Shown here piece after piece: positions 2,044 through 28,046 of a stretch of 32,196 bases of DNA; position 1 is the first letter of the stretch, and each line of letters starts with the position of its first letter. Origin of the DNA: a virus; the IMG/VR virus record IMGVR_UViG_3300043392_000003, positions 1 to 32,196 of that record. One strand, given 5' to 3'. The notes beneath the pieces are model-generated. The model saw only the letters and a program-made list of their open reading frames with translations, was not told the DNA's origin and did no database searches. Made by a program: the position numbers and the translations under genes.

Positions 2044-3184
2044 AAGCACACAAGAGATAAGCCAAGAAGCTTTGGAGCTTTACATTAGTGGCAAGTTTCC
2101 AAGTCAAGGAGCAATTGTTCGACATCTATTTGAGAAATATCCATACATAAGCAAGGAGCATTTAAGAATTGCTTTACTTCGCAGAGTTCAAAGATACAAG
2201 CGAATCAATAACCATCCAGCTCTTGCTACTGAATGCGAGGCAGTAGGATTACCTTTAGAGAATGTTTCAAATTATTGGTATAAAGGAAAGCAATATTCGG
2301 TACACGTTAAAGGAGATAAAGCAAAAACTTATGAAGAAATTCGAGATGAGATTGTTGCAAGTATGCAAGAGTATTCTCCAGTATATCCTACTATCATTCG
2401 TGGTAATAATACTGATGGGCATCTGCTTGTTGTTGATCCCGCTGATATTCATATTGGTAAGCTTGCAACAGCTTATGAAACTGGAGATAGCTATAATGTA
2501 GAGATTGCAATGAAGCGAGTATTGGATGGTGTTCGAGGCATTATCCAAAAAGCAAACGGATTTAATATTGACCAAATTTTATTTATTGCTGGCAATGACA
2601 TACTACACACTGATAGCGCCAAGAGAACTACTACAAGCGGTACACCACAAGACACTGATGGGATGTTTTATGAAAATTTCCTATGTGCCAAGAAGCTATA
2701 TGTTGAAGTGATTGAGCTACTAATGCAAGTAGCAGACATTCACTTTGTATTCAATCCATCTAATCACGACTACCAAAGCGGATTCTTTCTTGCAGATGTA
2801 ATTCAGTCTTGGTTTAGGAATTCATCTAATATTACTTTTGATTGTAGCATAGCGCATAGAAAGTATTACCAGTACGGAAGCAATTTAATTGGTAGCACTC
2901 ACGGCGATAGTGCGAAGCCACAAGACTTGCCGATGCTAATGGCAGTTGAATCAAGAGAAAGTTGGGCAGATACAAAACATAAGTATTTTTATTCTCATCA
3001 CTTGCACCACAAAATTAGTAAGGATTATATCGGAGTTACTGTCGAAAGTCTTAGATCGCCAAGCAGTAGCGATAGCTGGCACCACCGCAACGGGTATGGA
3101 GTTGGAGGAGTTAAAGCAGTTGAGGGATTTATACACCATAAAGAATTTGGTCAAGTCGCTCGTTTATCCCATATTTTTAATTAA
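2024..3184 (+). CDS. Calcineurin-like metallophosphoesterase with N-terminal HTH-like region
   Basis: 386 aa. The metallophosphoesterase signature is complete: Asp141-x-His143 (DIHIG), Gly190-Asn191-Asp192 (GND), Asn247-His248-Asp249 (SNHD), His293-x-Asp295 (THGD) and a His cluster at 325-328 (HHLH). These residues bind two metal ions and cleave phosphoester bonds. Residues 1-65 look like a small helical, possibly winged-helix DNA-binding part (ALELYISGKFPSQGAIVRHL). This two-part layout is common in Bacteroidota and other phages; the substrate (DNA ends, RNA or nucleotide) is unknown. It is the last gene before an HNH cassette and the terminator at 3810. Confidence 0.85.
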   Translation: MSNQENKSTQEISQEALELYISGKFPSQGAIVRHLFEKYPYISKEHLRIALLRRVQRYKRINNHPALATECEAVGLPLENVSNYWYKGKQYSVHVKGDKAKTYEEIRDEIVASMQEYSPVYPTIIRGNNTDGHLLVVDPADIHIGKLATAYETGDSYNVEIAMKRVLDGVRGIIQKANGFNIDQILFIAGNDILHTDSAKRTTTSGTPQDTDGMFYENFLCAKKLYVEVIELLMQVADIHFVFNPSNHDYQSGFFLADVIQSWFRNSSNITFDCSIAHRKYYQYGSNLIGSTHGDSAKPQDLPMLMAVESRESWADTKHKYFYSHHLHHKISKDYIGVTVESLRSPSSSDSWHHRNGYGVGGVKAVEGFIHHKEFGQVARLSHIFN

Positions 3185-3189
3185 ATTTG
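3182..3189 (+). promoter_or_regulatory. Possible Bacteroidota -7 promoter element TAAATTTG
   Basis: TAAATTTG is an exact match to the Bacteroidota -7 consensus TAnnTTTG and starts at the stop codon of the phosphoesterase gene. A convincing -33 element is not obvious. It would start a transcript just before the structured leader of the HNH gene. Confidence 0.35.
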
Positions 3190-3194
3190 TATTA

Positions 3195-3283
3195 AGCAAC
3201 TGCAACTGCTAACTACAACATTAATGGCTCATTTTATTTACAAGACGTTGCAGACTTGTATTTAATTTGAGCCTTTATTTTTT
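3195..3283 (+). promoter_or_regulatory. Structured mRNA leader of an HNH gene: two hairpins with kissing loops
   Basis: Hairpin 1 is AGCA (3195-3198) with TGCT (3207-3210), its loop containing CTGCAAC (3200-3206). Hairpin 2 is a long stem of 3226-3244 with 3255-3273, 15 of 19 positions paired and GGCTCA/TGAGCC at the base. Its loop contains GTTGCAG (3247-3253), the exact complement of loop 1. A U-rich decamer (3274-3283) separates hairpin 2 from the ATG at 3284. The leader at 6136-6233 has the same layout with different paired sequences. Hairpin 2 plus the U-run could also act as an intrinsic terminator in front of the gene. Confidence 0.65.
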
Positions 3284-3763
3284 ATGGAAATTTGGAAAGA
3301 AATTAATTGGGTTGATGGGAAATTTGCAATCAGCAATCAAGGTTTAGTTAAAAATTTGATTACTAATAAAATTCATTATGGATCAAATTTAAGAGGCTAT
3401 AAATCAATTAACCTTAAGAATAATGGTAAAATCAAAAACTATTTAATTCATAGAATAGTAGCAAAAGCTTTTATGGATAATTACGACGATAAATTAATGA
3501 TTAACCATATAGATTTTAACAAATCAAATAATAAAATAGATAATTTAGAATTAGTTACTAATAGAGAGAATCAATGCCATTCTATTAAAGCTAAAAATAA
3601 ATTCATAGGAGTTTCTTACCATAAAATTTATAAGGTTTGGACAGCACAAATAATGATAAATGGTAAGCTTAAATATTTAGGAAGATATCAAACTCAAGAA
3701 GATGCTTATAATGCAAGATGTAAATTTGAATTAGATAATGGTATTGTCAATAAATATTTATAA
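3284..3763 (+). CDS. HNH homing endonuclease with AP2 domain
   Basis: 159 aa. Residues 1-45 are a NUMOD4-type DNA-binding segment (MEIWKEINWV...AISNQGLVKN). Residues 55-98 are the HNH nuclease: His56, Asn74-His75 in MINHIDFNK, then NKIDNLELVTNRENQ. Residues 105-150 are an AP2-type DNA-binding domain (GVSYHKIYKVWTAQIMINGK, YLGRYQTQEDAYNAR). The protein is a free-standing selfish nuclease and probably cuts phages lacking the element. It sits between the phosphoesterase gene and the terminator, preceded by a structured leader. It is more AT-rich than the neighbouring structural genes, consistent with mobility. Confidence 0.9.
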   Translation: MEIWKEINWVDGKFAISNQGLVKNLITNKIHYGSNLRGYKSINLKNNGKIKNYLIHRIVAKAFMDNYDDKLMINHIDFNKSNNKIDNLELVTNRENQCHSIKAKNKFIGVSYHKIYKVWTAQIMINGKLKYLGRYQTQEDAYNARCKFELDNGIVNKYL

Positions 3764-3809
3764 TATTACATAATTAGTTTTCATAGTAGATAAAGGTTTA
3801 GTTGAAAGG

Positions 3810-3841
3810 AAAGGGTACTGGCATTGCTGGTATCCTTTTTT
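3810..3841 (+). terminator. Intrinsic terminator
   Basis: AAAGGGTAC (3810-3818) pairs with GTATCCTTT (3830-3838) with a single G:U, around an 11-nt loop, followed by a run of T at 3836-3841. It ends the lysis/phosphoesterase/HNH block and lies 62 nt upstream of the promoter element at 3903, marking the boundary between transcription units. Confidence 0.8.
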
Positions 3842-3902: not shown

Positions 3903-3910
3903 TACCTTTG
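3903..3910 (+). promoter_or_regulatory. Promoter -7 element TACCTTTG, early block
   Basis: TACCTTTG matches TAnnTTTG. A T-tract (3880-3885) lies about 17 nt upstream at the position of the -33 element, inside a very A/T-rich stretch (3848-3890). It follows a strong terminator and precedes a series of closely spaced genes beginning at 3953, so it is a good candidate for the main host-type early promoter. Confidence 0.55.
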
Positions 3911-3952
3911 ACATATCGAAAGCAACGAAGCAATCGAATAAACTTTATCAAG

Positions 3953-4150
3953 ATGAAAAAAGAATTTAGAATTTTCGAAGAAAACAATGCTAATTTTTTT
4001 AATCAATATGGCATTGCTGGTTATTTAAATCAAGATGATGCCAATAAATATGCTAAGTTAAAATGCGAATGGTGGGGCAGCAATTTAGTTTATTTAGGAG
4101 CTGAATTAATTGATGGATATTACTTCCCACAATTTAATGTATTTGATTAA
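3953..4150 (+). CDS. Small hypothetical early protein
   Basis: 65 aa from ATG at 3953; an in-frame TTG at 3908 overlaps the promoter element and is unlikely to be used. The product has alternating aromatic and acidic residues (EFRIFEENNANFFNQYGIAG, YLNQDDANKYAKLKCEWWGS) and looks like a compact alpha/beta domain. It is the first gene after the promoter at 3903, a position where phages commonly place host-takeover genes, but no function can be read from the sequence. Confidence 0.65.
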   Translation: MKKEFRIFEENNANFFNQYGIAGYLNQDDANKYAKLKCEWWGSNLVYLGAELIDGYYFPQFNVFD

Positions 4151-5994: not shown

Positions 5995-6122
5995 AAGAGC
6001 TAACCTTTAACCAATGGCAAGCACATCTTGCTAAGGAACTACAAAACAACTATCGTAAACTAAAACTTATTAAAATAGATAAAAAACAAAGAAATAGTTT
6101 GATTTCTAAGAATAAAGTATAA
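5991..6122 (+). CDS. Small basic hypothetical protein (43 aa)
   Basis: MKELTFNQWQAHLAKELQNN, then a strongly basic tail (YRKLKLIKIDKKQRN). It could bind nucleic acid. Its stop (TAA 6120-6122) coincides with the left border of the HNH cassette at 6118-6767, so in an ancestor lacking the cassette it would lie a few bases upstream of the DUF4373 gene. Confidence 0.55.
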   Translation: MKELTFNQWQAHLAKELQNNYRKLKLIKIDKKQRNSLISKNKV

Positions 6123-6135
6123 TATTGCATTTGTA

Positions 6136-6233
6136 ATCGCCTCCTTACATTATAGCGATAAAGAACTTAAAATGCTCTCATTTAATGAAACCGAAGTAAG
6201 GAGCGGTGGATTTATTTGGGAGCTTTTTATTTT
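6136..6233 (+). promoter_or_regulatory. Structured mRNA leader of an HNH gene: two hairpins with kissing loops
   Basis: Hairpin 1 is ATCGC (6136-6140) with GCGAT (6155-6159), loop starting CTCCTTAC (6141-6148). Hairpin 2 is 6174-6192 with 6205-6223, about 12 of 19 positions paired, GCTC/GAGC at the base. Its loop holds GTAAGGAG (6196-6203), an exact 8-nt complement of loop 1. A U-rich decamer (6224-6233) separates it from ATG 6234, the same spacing as in the leader at 3195-3283. GTAAGGAG is also the best Shine-Dalgarno-like sequence nearby, though 30 nt from the ATG. Upstream, GCATTTG (6127-6133) weakly resembles a -7 element. Confidence 0.65.
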
Positions 6234-6769: not shown

Positions 6770-7453
6770 ATGGAAAAAGAAGCTTATTATTTCCCGCATT
6801 TTTGTAATGCAAGACACGACCGAAAGATTCGGAGATTAAGAAAGGAATTAGGAGTTGAGGGTTATGGCATATACTTTATGCTATTAGAAACTCTAAGGGA
6901 GCAACAAGACCTTATGTATCCTTTAGAGGATTTAGACTTGTTAGCAGAAGAGTTTGGAGTATCAGAGGCAAAGATTCAAGTAACTGTCAGCAAGTACGAT
7001 CTATTTGAAATAGATGAATCGCAAAAGTTTTTCTCTCCGAAGATGTTAGTTTACTTAGAGCCTTACTTTAGAATGAAAGAGCAGAGGAGAGAAGCTGGTT
7101 TAAGGTCAGCAGAGAAACGAAAACTCAACGACCGTTCAACGACCGTTGAACAAAGTAAAGAAAAGGAAAGTAAAGTAAATGAAATAAAAGAAAAAGAAAG
7201 TAAAGTATCTTTTAGTGTTCAACTTTTACAATACGTTGTTGAATTAGGAGATGAATACGACAACTTTTATTCTTACTGGACAGAGAAAGATAAAAAAGGA
7301 AAAGAGAGATGGGAAAACGAAAAGTATTTCGATATTAGCAGAAGAATAAAAACTTGGATTACTAACTCAACTAAATTTAAAACTAATGGAACTAATAACT
7401 CAGAGAAACTTGGAACATCAGCTGCAAGAATGGAAGCCCTCCGTAATTGGTAA
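6770..7453 (+). CDS. DUF4373 (Lin1244/Lin1753-type) replication initiator-like protein
   Basis: 227 aa. The N-terminal domain (residues 1-110) matches the DUF4373 pattern: YYFPHFCNARHDRKIRRLRK, GVEGYGIYFMLLETLREQ, DLLAEEFGV and a winged-helix-like end. A Lys/Glu-rich linker (residues 115-145) leads to a C-terminal segment with FYSYWTEKDKKGKERWENEK and FDISRRIKTWI, typical of phage DnaD/replisome-organiser proteins. It probably binds the phage origin and recruits host replication proteins, since no phage polymerase or helicase is present in this genome. Family assignment is strong, the exact role inferred. Confidence 0.88.
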   Translation: MEKEAYYFPHFCNARHDRKIRRLRKELGVEGYGIYFMLLETLREQQDLMYPLEDLDLLAEEFGVSEAKIQVTVSKYDLFEIDESQKFFSPKMLVYLEPYFRMKEQRREAGLRSAEKRKLNDRSTTVEQSKEKESKVNEIKEKESKVSFSVQLLQYVVELGDEYDNFYSYWTEKDKKGKERWENEKYFDISRRIKTWITNSTKFKTNGTNNSEKLGTSAARMEALRNW

Positions 7454-9964: not shown

Positions 9965-10205
9965 TGGCTTAGACCAAACTTTACTTGAAATGACTCGTGA
10001 AGTTAAAGATATGGTTAATTCCCCAGCTCATTATCAGGGCAAAAAATTTGAGGTAATTGACATAATTAACGACTACTCATTGAACTTTGAGTTAGGGAAT
10101 GCAATCAAGTATATCTTGCGAGCAGATAAGAAAGGGAATAAGAAGCAAGACATTGAAAAAGCTATTTGGTATCTCAATCACGAGTTATCAAAATTTAAAG
10201 GATAA
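9948..10205 (+). CDS. DUF3310 (SaV-like) protein
   Basis: 85 aa. VNSPAHYQGKKFEVIDIIND, then FELGNAIKYILRADKKGNKK and DIEKAIWYLNHEL are the hallmark of DUF3310, a small helical family widespread in phages, sometimes labelled nucleotide kinase-like although no kinase motif is present. The His/Tyr of HY and the RAxxKG segment are conserved family positions. It is the last of the contiguous early series; a short gap with the TCGTTTAT octamer follows. Confidence 0.88.
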   Translation: MESNFNGLDQTLLEMTREVKDMVNSPAHYQGKKFEVIDIINDYSLNFELGNAIKYILRADKKGNKKQDIEKAIWYLNHELSKFKG

Positions 10206-10218
10206 AACGATACTTTTT

Positions 10219-10226
10219 TCGTTTAT
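10219..10226 (+). promoter_or_regulatory. TCGTTTAT octamer upstream of the regulatory block
   Basis: Exact copy of the octamer found 5 nt before the ATG of three late genes (13256, 22367, 25385). Here it is 15 nt before ATG 10242, the first gene of the block holding the sigma-like factor. The AACAAW upstream half is not at the expected distance. It may be an autoregulatory site or a chance match. Confidence 0.35.
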
Positions 10227-10241
10227 ATAAAAAAGAGATAT

Positions 10242-10421
10242 ATGAAACCTGAAGAAAGGGCATCTTTCCTATGCAATCACGCTAATTTCTTTTGTAGAGA
10301 TAGAGCCAATGCCATAGAATTAGCTTTGCTTATATGCGAGCTAATACTTGAGAATCGTTTGAAAGAAGATGATAGAGTATATTGGAAGCTTACTGTTGAA
10401 GAGATATATAAACTACGATGA
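10242..10421 (+). CDS. Small hypothetical protein (59 aa), first gene of the regulatory block
   Basis: MKPEERASFLCNHANFFCRD followed by helical RANAIELALLICELILENR and a C-terminal VEEIYKLR. Two Cys at 11 and 18 and His13 are noticeable. Its TGA overlaps the ATG of the sigma-like gene (ATGA), so the two are probably co-translated. No family recognised; a regulator of the downstream sigma factor is conceivable but not shown. Confidence 0.6.
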   Translation: MKPEERASFLCNHANFFCRDRANAIELALLICELILENRLKEDDRVYWKLTVEEIYKLR

Positions 10422-10867
10422 ATCACATATACTCGAAGCATAAACATTGGATTCGTGTGGTGGAAAAGTTTGGCGAAGTACATTATGCAGAAGATGTAGT
10501 GCAAGAGGCATACATCAAAGTTTTTGAAAAGGACATCAACGAAGCCTACTTTTACTTTACGCTACGATCCCTTACAATGGACTTGCATCGAAAGAAAGTT
10601 GAAAAGGTAGAGATAACAAAAGAGATAGAATACTCGTTAATAGAAGAGAATGATGAGTATATCATTGACCTTGCAAAGCCTTACCAAGATTACATCGAAA
10701 CTTGGGATTGGTATGATAAGAAGCTATTCATGCTTTGGATTGAATCAGGAGTAAGTATGAGAGAAATAGCAAGAAGAACGAATATCGGTTTCATGTCAGT
10801 TTACAATACAATTAAAAATTGCAAAGAAAAGATTAAACAATGGGAAAAAGAAAATCACAAGGCTTAG
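10418..10867 (+). CDS. Phage-encoded ECF-like sigma factor
   Basis: 149 aa, very compact. Residues 22-60 read as sigma region 2 (YAEDVVQEAYIKVFEKD with the conserved D-VQE-F pattern, then FYFTLRSLTMDLHRKK, the region 2.3/2.4-like helix). Residues 108-140 form a region 4 helix-turn-helix (SGVSMREIARRTNIGFMSVY, then NTIKNCKEKIK). This two-domain form is that of ECF sigma factors, so the protein could direct host RNA polymerase to phage promoters. It precedes the packaging genes, the usual place for a late regulator. An alternative is a sigma-like DNA-binding protein without polymerase function. Confidence 0.75.
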   Translation: MNHIYSKHKHWIRVVEKFGEVHYAEDVVQEAYIKVFEKDINEAYFYFTLRSLTMDLHRKKVEKVEITKEIEYSLIEENDEYIIDLAKPYQDYIETWDWYDKKLFMLWIESGVSMREIARRTNIGFMSVYNTIKNCKEKIKQWEKENHKA

Positions 10868-11464: not shown

Positions 11465-12023
11465 TAGGGTGTTGCTTTGAAAATCATTTTTAGCTATATT
11501 GCATTATGGAAATATGGAAAAAAATTGATGGCTACCAAGGCTACGAATGTTCTAATTTAGGAAGAATTAAAACATTTAATTGGAAAAATACGGGTAGGGT
11601 TGCAATTATGAAGCCAGCACTTGACAGTTCAGGATATTTGCGAACTGTATTAAAGCGAAATGATGGCAAATTATGTACGATAAAAGTGCATAGAATTATT
11701 TTGCAAACATTTAATCCGAATGACAATAGTAGTATTTTAGAATGTAACCACAAAAACGGGATCAAAAATGACAATAATATTTTGAATCTTGAATGGGTTA
11801 CACGAAAACAAAATTTACAACATTGCAAAGATAACAATTTGCAATATGTTTTAAGAGGAGAAGAGGTAGGCAATTCTGTTCTAACTTCAACAAAAGTACT
11901 TGAGATAAGAAGCAAATTTATTCCAAGAAAATACTCAAGAACAAGATTAGCAAAAGAGTATGGAGTTTCTGAAGCAACAATTAAAGATGTACTTTATAAA
12001 AGAAGTTGGAAACATATATGATA
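11461..12023 (+). mobile_element. HNH homing endonuclease cassette inserted at the TerS-TerL junction
   Basis: ATGATA occurs at 11461-11466 (TerS stop region) and at 12018-12023 (TerL start). Deleting 11461-12017 joins TerS and TerL by an ATGA overlap, the arrangement seen at many other junctions of this genome. The 557-bp unit contains only a short leader and one HNH gene. The direct repeat is short and could be chance, but the restored junction argues for a clean insertion. Confidence 0.5.
11506..12021 (+). CDS. HNH homing endonuclease with C-terminal HTH
   Basis: 171 aa. NUMOD4-like start (MEIWKKIDGYQGYECSNLGR), HNH core with His62 in VHRIILQTF, Asn81-His82 in CNHKNGIKNDN, then NLEWVTRKQN. 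Residues 127-167 contain a helix-turn-helix (TRLAKEYGVSEATIKDVL) instead of the AP2 domain of the two other HNH proteins. Free-standing homing nucleases next to terL are common and usually target terL of competitors. The leader (11465-11505) is short; ATATTGCATT just before the ATG also occurs at 6122-6131. Stop overlaps the TerL ATG. Confidence 0.92.
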   Translation: MEIWKKIDGYQGYECSNLGRIKTFNWKNTGRVAIMKPALDSSGYLRTVLKRNDGKLCTIKVHRIILQTFNPNDNSSILECNHKNGIKNDNNILNLEWVTRKQNLQHCKDNNLQYVLRGEEVGNSVLTSTKVLEIRSKFIPRKYSRTRLAKEYGVSEATIKDVLYKRSWKHI

Positions 12024-27455: not shown

Positions 27456-28046
27456 ATGGCATTAGTTTATCAACATACAAGATTAGATACTAATGATGTA
27501 TTTTATATTGGAATAAGTTCTAATTATAAAAGAGCATATCAAAAAGCTGATAGAAGAAATATAATTTGGGGTAGAATCGTTAAAAAAACTGATTATAAAA
27601 TTGATATTATAGCAGAAGATTTAACTTGGGAGCAAGCTTGTAAATTAGAAATAGAATTAATTGCCAAGTATGGAAGAATTGATTTAGGTAATGGTACTTT
27701 AGCTAATTTAACTAATGGGGGCGATGGATCATTTAATAGAATTCAAACTCAAGAAGAAAAAGAAAAAAGAGCTAAATCTATTAGAGGCATGAAAAGAAAT
27801 GATGAAACTAAAAGAAAAATAAGTTTAGCGCATAAAGGAAAAGTTTTTAGTGAAAAATCAAAAAAAAGAATGTCTGATGCGCATATTGGACAAATTAGTG
27901 CAAATGCAAAAATTGTACTTGATTTGCAAACTGGAATATTTTTTGATAGTTTAAGAAGTGCATGCGAATTATTAAATATTAAGTATAAAAACCAATTTGC
28001 ATTAATGAGTAGAAATAGTTTAAAATCAAGATTTACGTTTATATAA
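27456..28046 (+). CDS. GIY-YIG homing endonuclease with NUMOD3 motifs
   Basis: 196 aa. GIY-YIG core: VYQHTRLDTN, then VFYIGISSNYKRAYQKADRR with Arg26, and the acidic helix WEQACKLEIELIAKYGR carrying the probable metal ligand Glu66, ending LANLTNGGDGS. Residues about 118-150 hold NUMOD3 motifs (KRKISLAHKGKVFSEKSKKR, MSDAHIGQ) and 160-195 a NUMOD1/HTH-like end. Inserted between portal and connector: ATAAT at 27447-27451 and 28043-28047. Joining these recreates a TAATG overlap of portal stop and connector start. Confidence 0.92.
   Translation: MALVYQHTRLDTNDVFYIGISSNYKRAYQKADRRNIIWGRIVKKTDYKIDIIAEDLTWEQACKLEIELIAKYGRIDLGNGTLANLTNGGDGSFNRIQTQEEKEKRAKSIRGMKRNDETKRKISLAHKGKVFSEKSKKRMSDAHIGQISANAKIVLDLQTGIFFDSLRSACELLNIKYKNQFALMSRNSLKSRFTFI

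Follow-up and report, generated by a model that had tools for sequence, protein, structure and literature searches.

Kissing-loop leaders before endonuclease and replication-initiator genes: a putative RNA family of Bacteroidota phages

Two kissing-loop leaders in the window

The window, by which we mean the whole 32,196-nt stretch of DNA analyzed, carries on its plus strand two genes for HNH_3 endonucleases, P0001 (3284..3763) and P0002 (6234..6767), and, directly after the second, a gene at 6770..7453 for a predicted replication initiator (PF14297 Lin1244_N; PHROG 2562). A two-hairpin leader stands before the ATG of each endonuclease gene, and when we rechecked coordinates and complementarity we found both leaders exactly where a preliminary description of this DNA had placed them. 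In leader 1, the first hairpin (H1, AGCA-ACTGCAAC-TGCT, plus strand, 3195..3210), the same in the related loci L140, L141, L142 and L122, exposes the kissing strand CTGCAAC at 3200-3206. The second hairpin (H2, 3226..3273), a two-part stem with compensatory inner-stem changes in L141 and L122, presents GTTGCAG at 3247-3253, an exact 7-bp complement, and is followed directly on its 3' side by the U-tract TTTATTTTTT (3274..3283). Leader 2 repeats this architecture with a different sequence, also as previously described. Its H1 (plus strand, 6136..6159; stem ATCGC/GCGAT) carries the kissing strand CTCCTTAC at 6141-6148 and then a conserved ATTATA, its H2 (6174..6223) carries the 8 complementary nucleotides GTAAGGAG at 6196-6203, and the U-tract TTTTTATTTT (6224..6233) follows directly. 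The distance from the end of H2 to the ATG is 10 nt in both leaders, with a T-rich stretch in the gap, in agreement with the preliminary description.

Complementary loops alone mean little in a genome this AT-rich (34% GC), so a loose scan that accepted any 6- or 7-mer in two hairpin loops was swamped by chance matches, from about 50 (7-mer) to 225 (6-mer) per shuffled genome, and was abandoned. A strict descriptor called for a two-part H2, an outer stem of 5 bp or longer that includes at least 3 G-C pairs, a kiss of 6 nt or longer with the same minimum of 3 G-C pairs, and an ATG 4-22 nt downstream. On both strands of the window it found exactly leaders 1 and 2, each with its ATG at +10, compared with 16 matches in total among 100 dinucleotide shuffles (0.16 per shuffled genome). 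Since leaders 1 and 2 themselves served as the template for the descriptor, covariation in relatives is the stronger evidence. By the same descriptor, no kissing leader precedes either of two other endonuclease-like genes of the window, at 11506-12021 (HNH, PHROG 59) and 27456-28046 (homing endonuclease, PHROG 314).

Relatives, covariation and kissing codes

We applied the strict descriptor to related phage contigs totalling about 1 Mb, most of which had been located by their portal gene. The scan returned L021, nearly a copy of leader 1, and L057, an element resembling leader 2 whose loops had changed yet remained complementary and which had no HNH gene behind it. An H1 pattern, ATCGCCN{6,9}ATTATAGCGAT, matched 52 viral contigs, 36 of which held real members; the other 16 were chance H1 matches without an H2 and were set aside. 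Among relatives of the gene at 6770, the leader stood directly before that gene in many phages, and these relatives also revealed a commoner third type, in which H1 has a long stem and a loop such as GTAGGAG, and the terminator hairpin bears CTCCTAC. We refer to leader 1 as type I, to leader 2 as type II, and to the long-H1 type with the terminator hairpin as type III. Leader 2 scored 65 bits with a model built from type II sequences (R1), whereas leader 1 reached no more than 22.8 bits (E 0.08). The kinship of type I with type II is thus likely rather than proven, and that of type III with types I and II rests on architecture. Minus-strand matches of the model were discarded as the mirror of near-palindromic stems.

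The type III alignment (31 sequences, 28 pairs) had 99.1% of its cells paired, and 16 of the 28 pairs showed both-sided changes. Its covariation score was reached by 0 of 500 shuffles, and slid and shuffled controls scored far lower. In the kissing helix itself, 100% of the cells were paired; 33 cells had both-sided changes, at three positions, and 0 had one-sided changes. RNAalifold independently returned the same two hairpins. For type II, with 16 distinct sequences, the kissing helix was again 100% paired, 5 of its 8 pairs having both-sided and none one-sided changes. Here H1 and the inner H2 stem covaried too, and the unpaired ATTATA was nearly invariant.

As a test on further data, a pattern fixed on H2 alone was searched and matched 77 contigs, some of them already seen. 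An exact partner lay in H1, 38-40 nt upstream of the H2 stem, in all 53 distinct full-length leaders, and mismatched codes occurred 0 times in 4829. The pattern required CTNNNAC and so left three middle positions free; three codes occurred, each with its partner. The preliminary description had proposed a covariation test and had read the covarying loops as a selected tertiary RNA contact. In the relatives the kissing helix covaried fully in types II and III, which, together with the 53 of 53 partners, bore that reading out. We are almost certain that this is a real, selected kissing-loop RNA family.

The kissing codes of the family form a limited set that recurs on different backgrounds: GTAGGAG, GTGAGAG, GTCGGAG, GTCAGAG, GTGGTAG and GTTAGAG, and CTCACTAC, CTCTCGAC, CTTCTCAC, CTCCTTAC and GTTCTCAC. 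On a tree of the initiators, many branches of which are weak, the code changes at least 21 times and the leader switches between types II and III at least 8 times, so it appears that leader and initiator are often shuffled or that codes often change. Two leaders, L105:2857-2955 and L106:10433-10531, differ in two fully compensated kissing pairs and at one position outside the kiss, a difference that hints at selection for new codes. An anti-Shine-Dalgarno reading of the GGAG-containing loops was dropped, since other codes lack GGAG. We likewise gave up the idea that two leaders sharing a genome must be orthogonal: codes do differ in the four genomes with a second, HNH-linked leader, but one 59-kb contig (L287 and L354) breaks the rule. 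In this contig, perhaps a fusion of two phages, each of two different initiator genes is preceded by a type III leader, and both leaders carry one and the same code.

The preliminary description knew of no RNA class of this form, and our searches agree with it. Rfam 15 at the curated gathering score gave 0 matches for the window, L091, L102 and L140, with HEARO, riboswitches and attenuators among the families covered. A lax Rfam search around the two leaders gave chance-level matches only, and a search up to E 0.5 with seven leader-bearing loci gave none. In the open-access literature we found no description of a kissing-loop leader family. A blastn search of the leaders against cultured phages returned nothing for type III and short, weak matches only for type II, and the descriptor found no kissing leader in the first 25 kb of the record of Inhavirus P12024S. 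Host genomes were searched with one exact pattern, and the single match in prokaryote genome contigs, in Helicobacter vulpis, had no H2 and was dismissed as chance; members are known from uncultured IMG/VR contigs only. The hosts are probably Bacteroidota, to judge from the promoter type and from a distant portal relative, Nonlabens phage P12024S. Leaders 1 and 2 thus appear to be members of an undescribed family of promoter-proximal phage RNAs.

Replication-initiator and HNH genes behind the leaders

The preliminary description had presented the element as a leader of HNH endonucleases, a view that is not supported for the family, as most members precede replication-initiator genes and have no HNH gene. 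A kissing leader lay at most 1400 nt upstream of 65 of 66 distinct Lin1244_N-type genes, in a set that was fetched in part via the leaders and is therefore not wholly independent. Other genes behind the leader encode proteins that start MAAFRK or MDIYSL, have no Pfam match, and resemble initiators in position and size only. Leader and initiator are sometimes separated by a small ORF or an HNH gene. The home of the family would be the replication-initiator operon of a large group of Bacteroidota phages.

Nor does Pfam show the two endonucleases to share one architecture, as had been stated: it gives HNH_3 only for P0002, and HNH_3 with sub-threshold AP2 and NUMOD4 for P0001. P0001 appears to have moved as a unit with leader 1. 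In nine HNH-less relatives, no leader is present behind the exonuclease gene: a promoter box (TACATTTG, comparable to and in the place of the -7 box of leader 1) is followed there by TTTTCATA, or by a sequence close to it, and by an ordinary terminator. The unit of leader 1 and HNH gene sits between the promoter box and TTTTCATA with its terminator in the window, in L021 and in L140. The right junction of the insert in the window, TTTTCATAG (plus strand, 3778..3786), stands directly behind the resident promoter region in the HNH-less relatives, and an ordinary terminator hairpin with a T-run (3813..3841, score 21.2) follows downstream of P0001. The leaders of L021 and the window are almost identical and their HNH proteins clearly different, so probably either leader 1 travels together with HNH genes or one HNH gene replaces another behind it.

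The earlier suggestion that the leader could be part of the mobile unit fits leader 1, since the HNH-less relatives lack both leader and HNH gene at that site. A near-identical copy of leader 2 is joined directly to the initiator in L093, which suggests that leader 2 belongs to the replication operon as its resident leader and that an HNH gene was inserted between it and the initiator. HNH genes of the P0002 type occur behind a type II leader in L118 and behind a type III leader in L351 and are thus independent of any one leader type. A sequence search with P0002 returned no relatives, and a search for relatives of the HNH proteins in other phages returned six distant loci, none with a leader.

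A separate element follows the exonuclease gene at 3903-3970 of the window and in several relatives (L271-L279). It consists of a further promoter box, TACCTTTG, a conserved 5' hairpin-like sequence, ATCGAAAGCAACGAAGCAATCGA, and then an ATG, and is perhaps another leader type.

Promoter, terminator and a possible switch

The -7 element of Bacteroidota promoters is TAHHTTTG (PMC6847099). Leader 1 has a -7 box of this consensus, TAAATTTG (plus strand, 3182..3189), with a predicted transcript start at about 3194; leader 2 has a -7-like box, TAATATTG (6120..6127), which has one mismatch to TAnnTTTG and keeps a fixed register in relatives. A TAnnTTTG or TAnnTTG box stood just 5' of H1 in 90 of 96 leaders, versus 8% of equivalent stretches of the window, and because of this position transcripts are predicted to begin at about the first base of H1. 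A -33 element was not always evident.

At the other end of the leader, H2 with its T-run had intrinsic-terminator scores of 9-22 in type III, similar to the 15 and 21 of two ordinary terminators of these phages. The scores were borderline, from -6 to +3, in types I and II, the window's own (+1.4 for leader 1 and +2.8 for leader 2). The T6 run is invariant in alignment A5. Only 3-19 nt separate the T-run from the start codon, which leaves no room for a second promoter, so the polymerase has to pass through H2 to reach the gene; transcripts with starts further upstream could also cover the initiator genes. The leaders accordingly combine, as terminator-type attenuators do, a promoter, a terminator hairpin and a U-tract before a start codon, with borderline scores in types I and II. 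When type III leaders were inspected for an antiterminator, only a partial match between H1 and an arm of H2 emerged, which was not kept by the H1 covariation. In a search for leader peptides, limited to ATG starts, only 5 of the 53 type III leaders had an ATG within the stretch examined.

The observed structure and covariation, with the promoter box, the position and the pattern of HNH insertion, are most simply read as a conditional terminator, because promoter, structured RNA and terminator stand directly before the start codon. We consider it somewhat probable that the leader is a promoter-linked attenuator of the replication operon, with HNH genes inserted behind it or carried with a copy of it. 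Transcription attenuation was one of three ideas in the preliminary description and is the best supported of them, by the promoter box, the terminator-type H2 and the position. From a Bacteroidota promoter, H1 would be made from about +1, followed by the terminator-type H2 and U-tract, with 7-8 bp of pairing between the H1 and H2 loops. Many transcripts would end at the U-tract after about 90-100 nt, and the initiator would be made on read-through of H2. The loop contact would shape H2 during its synthesis and may help or hinder termination. We infer termination in vivo and its tuning by the contact, in either direction; the trigger would be a protein, a change in the polymerase or an RNA in trans, since neither a leader peptide nor a conserved antiterminator pairing was found. 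An HNH gene would then have settled between leader and initiator at leader 2, and at leader 1 another would have travelled, together with a copy of the leader, to a second site behind the exonuclease gene.

It is also conceivable, if unlikely, that the element is a small-RNA gene, in which a promoter, a structured RNA of about 95 nt and a terminator yield a product that acts in trans and the gene behind is reached by incidental read-through. The compact RNA framed by promoter and terminator would suit this, as would the limited codes recurring on different backgrounds, the compensated pairs of L105 and L106 and the repeated code changes on the initiator tree. Against it speak the tight placement 3-19 nt before the start codon, the linkage to one functional gene class, and the complementarity of the loops within one RNA, which is thus satisfied in cis.

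We think it rather unlikely that the leader is a structured 5' UTR that acts after transcription, protecting the mRNA 5' end or tuning translation like the hairpins of T4 homing-endonuclease genes. H1 begins at the predicted +1 and H2 ends 10 nt before both start codons in the window; a hairpin lies just upstream of the ribosome binding site in seg43(25) (PMC2988022), and mRNA structure tunes translation in Flavobacterium (PMC6847099). However, the start codon lies outside H2, the gap between T-run and ATG ranges from 3 to 19 nt, and a conserved U-tract directly behind a GC-rich stem would be unneeded in such a role. A T4-style block of the ribosome site, as raised in the preliminary description, is further disfavored by the 10-nt gap between H2 and the ATG, by the lack of Shine-Dalgarno sequences in Bacteroidota (PMC6847099) and by the terminator-typical T-run.

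A nascent put-like RNA, which would make the polymerase ignore later terminators of the replication operon, seems very unlikely. Like HK022 putL as presented in the accessible parts of PMC9378689, the leader comprises two hairpins in about 70-95 nt directly downstream of a phage promoter, and the nearly invariant unpaired ATTATA of type II would fit, but put acts on terminators further downstream, and the type III H2 itself scores as a terminator, which those parts do not describe for put. A replication-origin transcript or primer, kept while initiator genes are exchanged, could explain why the leader precedes several initiator-like proteins that share no Pfam family, and is least probable in view of type I copies before HNH genes, away from the initiator.

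In P12024S, the region before gp16 (L269, about 10120-10265) has a promoter box, TATATTTG, followed by what appears to be a strong terminator hairpin and by an ATG, lacks kissing loops, and looks like a simpler promoter-terminator-gene form in a cultured relative. The window also encodes, at 10418-10867, a small protein with weak matches to sigma-70 region 2 and a helix-turn-helix (UPF0122), and gp33 of Nonlabens phage P12024S, a sigma region 2 protein, occupies the corresponding place. The window protein might change promoter use during infection.

The systems nearest to the kissing leaders, namely plasmid replication attenuators, HK022 putRNA and T4 endonuclease hairpins, each differ from them in a defining respect. 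The rep leaders of plasmids pT181 and pIP501 are terminator-type transcription attenuators of replication genes. As in these plasmids (for the pIP501 rep attenuator, see PMC4981023), a terminator-type hairpin lies between the promoter and a replication-initiator gene and loop-loop contacts are central; the plasmids use an antisense RNA from the opposite strand, whereas here one RNA contains both complementary loops, and the element belongs to phage genomes. HK022 putRNA resembles the leaders as a short RNA with two hairpins that lies immediately downstream of an early phage promoter, but it suppresses later terminators, and the accessible parts of PMC9378689 describe neither loop kissing nor a terminator role for it. 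The leaders of T4 homing endonucleases and of seg43(25) of Aeromonas phage 25 (PMC2988022) also place a hairpin just upstream of an endonuclease start codon. Those hairpins hide or flank a Shine-Dalgarno sequence, unlike the two kissing hairpins and U-tract found here, mostly without an endonuclease gene. HEARO and omega RNA (Rfam) are structured RNAs beside an HNH gene in a mobile setting as well; in contrast, the kissing leaders have no Rfam match and lie mostly without an HNH gene, and the enzymes encoded here are small HNH_3 proteins of 159-177 aa.

We see a slim chance that the interchangeable codes let terminated leaders recognize leaders of the same code in trans, for copy-number sensing or the exclusion of relatives. 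If true, this would resemble plasmid incompatibility at replication-gene transcription, but with a sense RNA.

Read as conditional terminators, the leaders are candidates for a switch of replication-gene expression in a group of phages about whose regulation little is known. We found no description of a comparable control, in which the loop of a terminator would be held by a second hairpin of the same RNA through exchangeable codes. Homing endonucleases would here settle behind a regulatory RNA and carry it off. The family, structured, strongly covarying, widespread and absent from Rfam, would belong to a large and mostly uncultured group of Bacteroidota phages.
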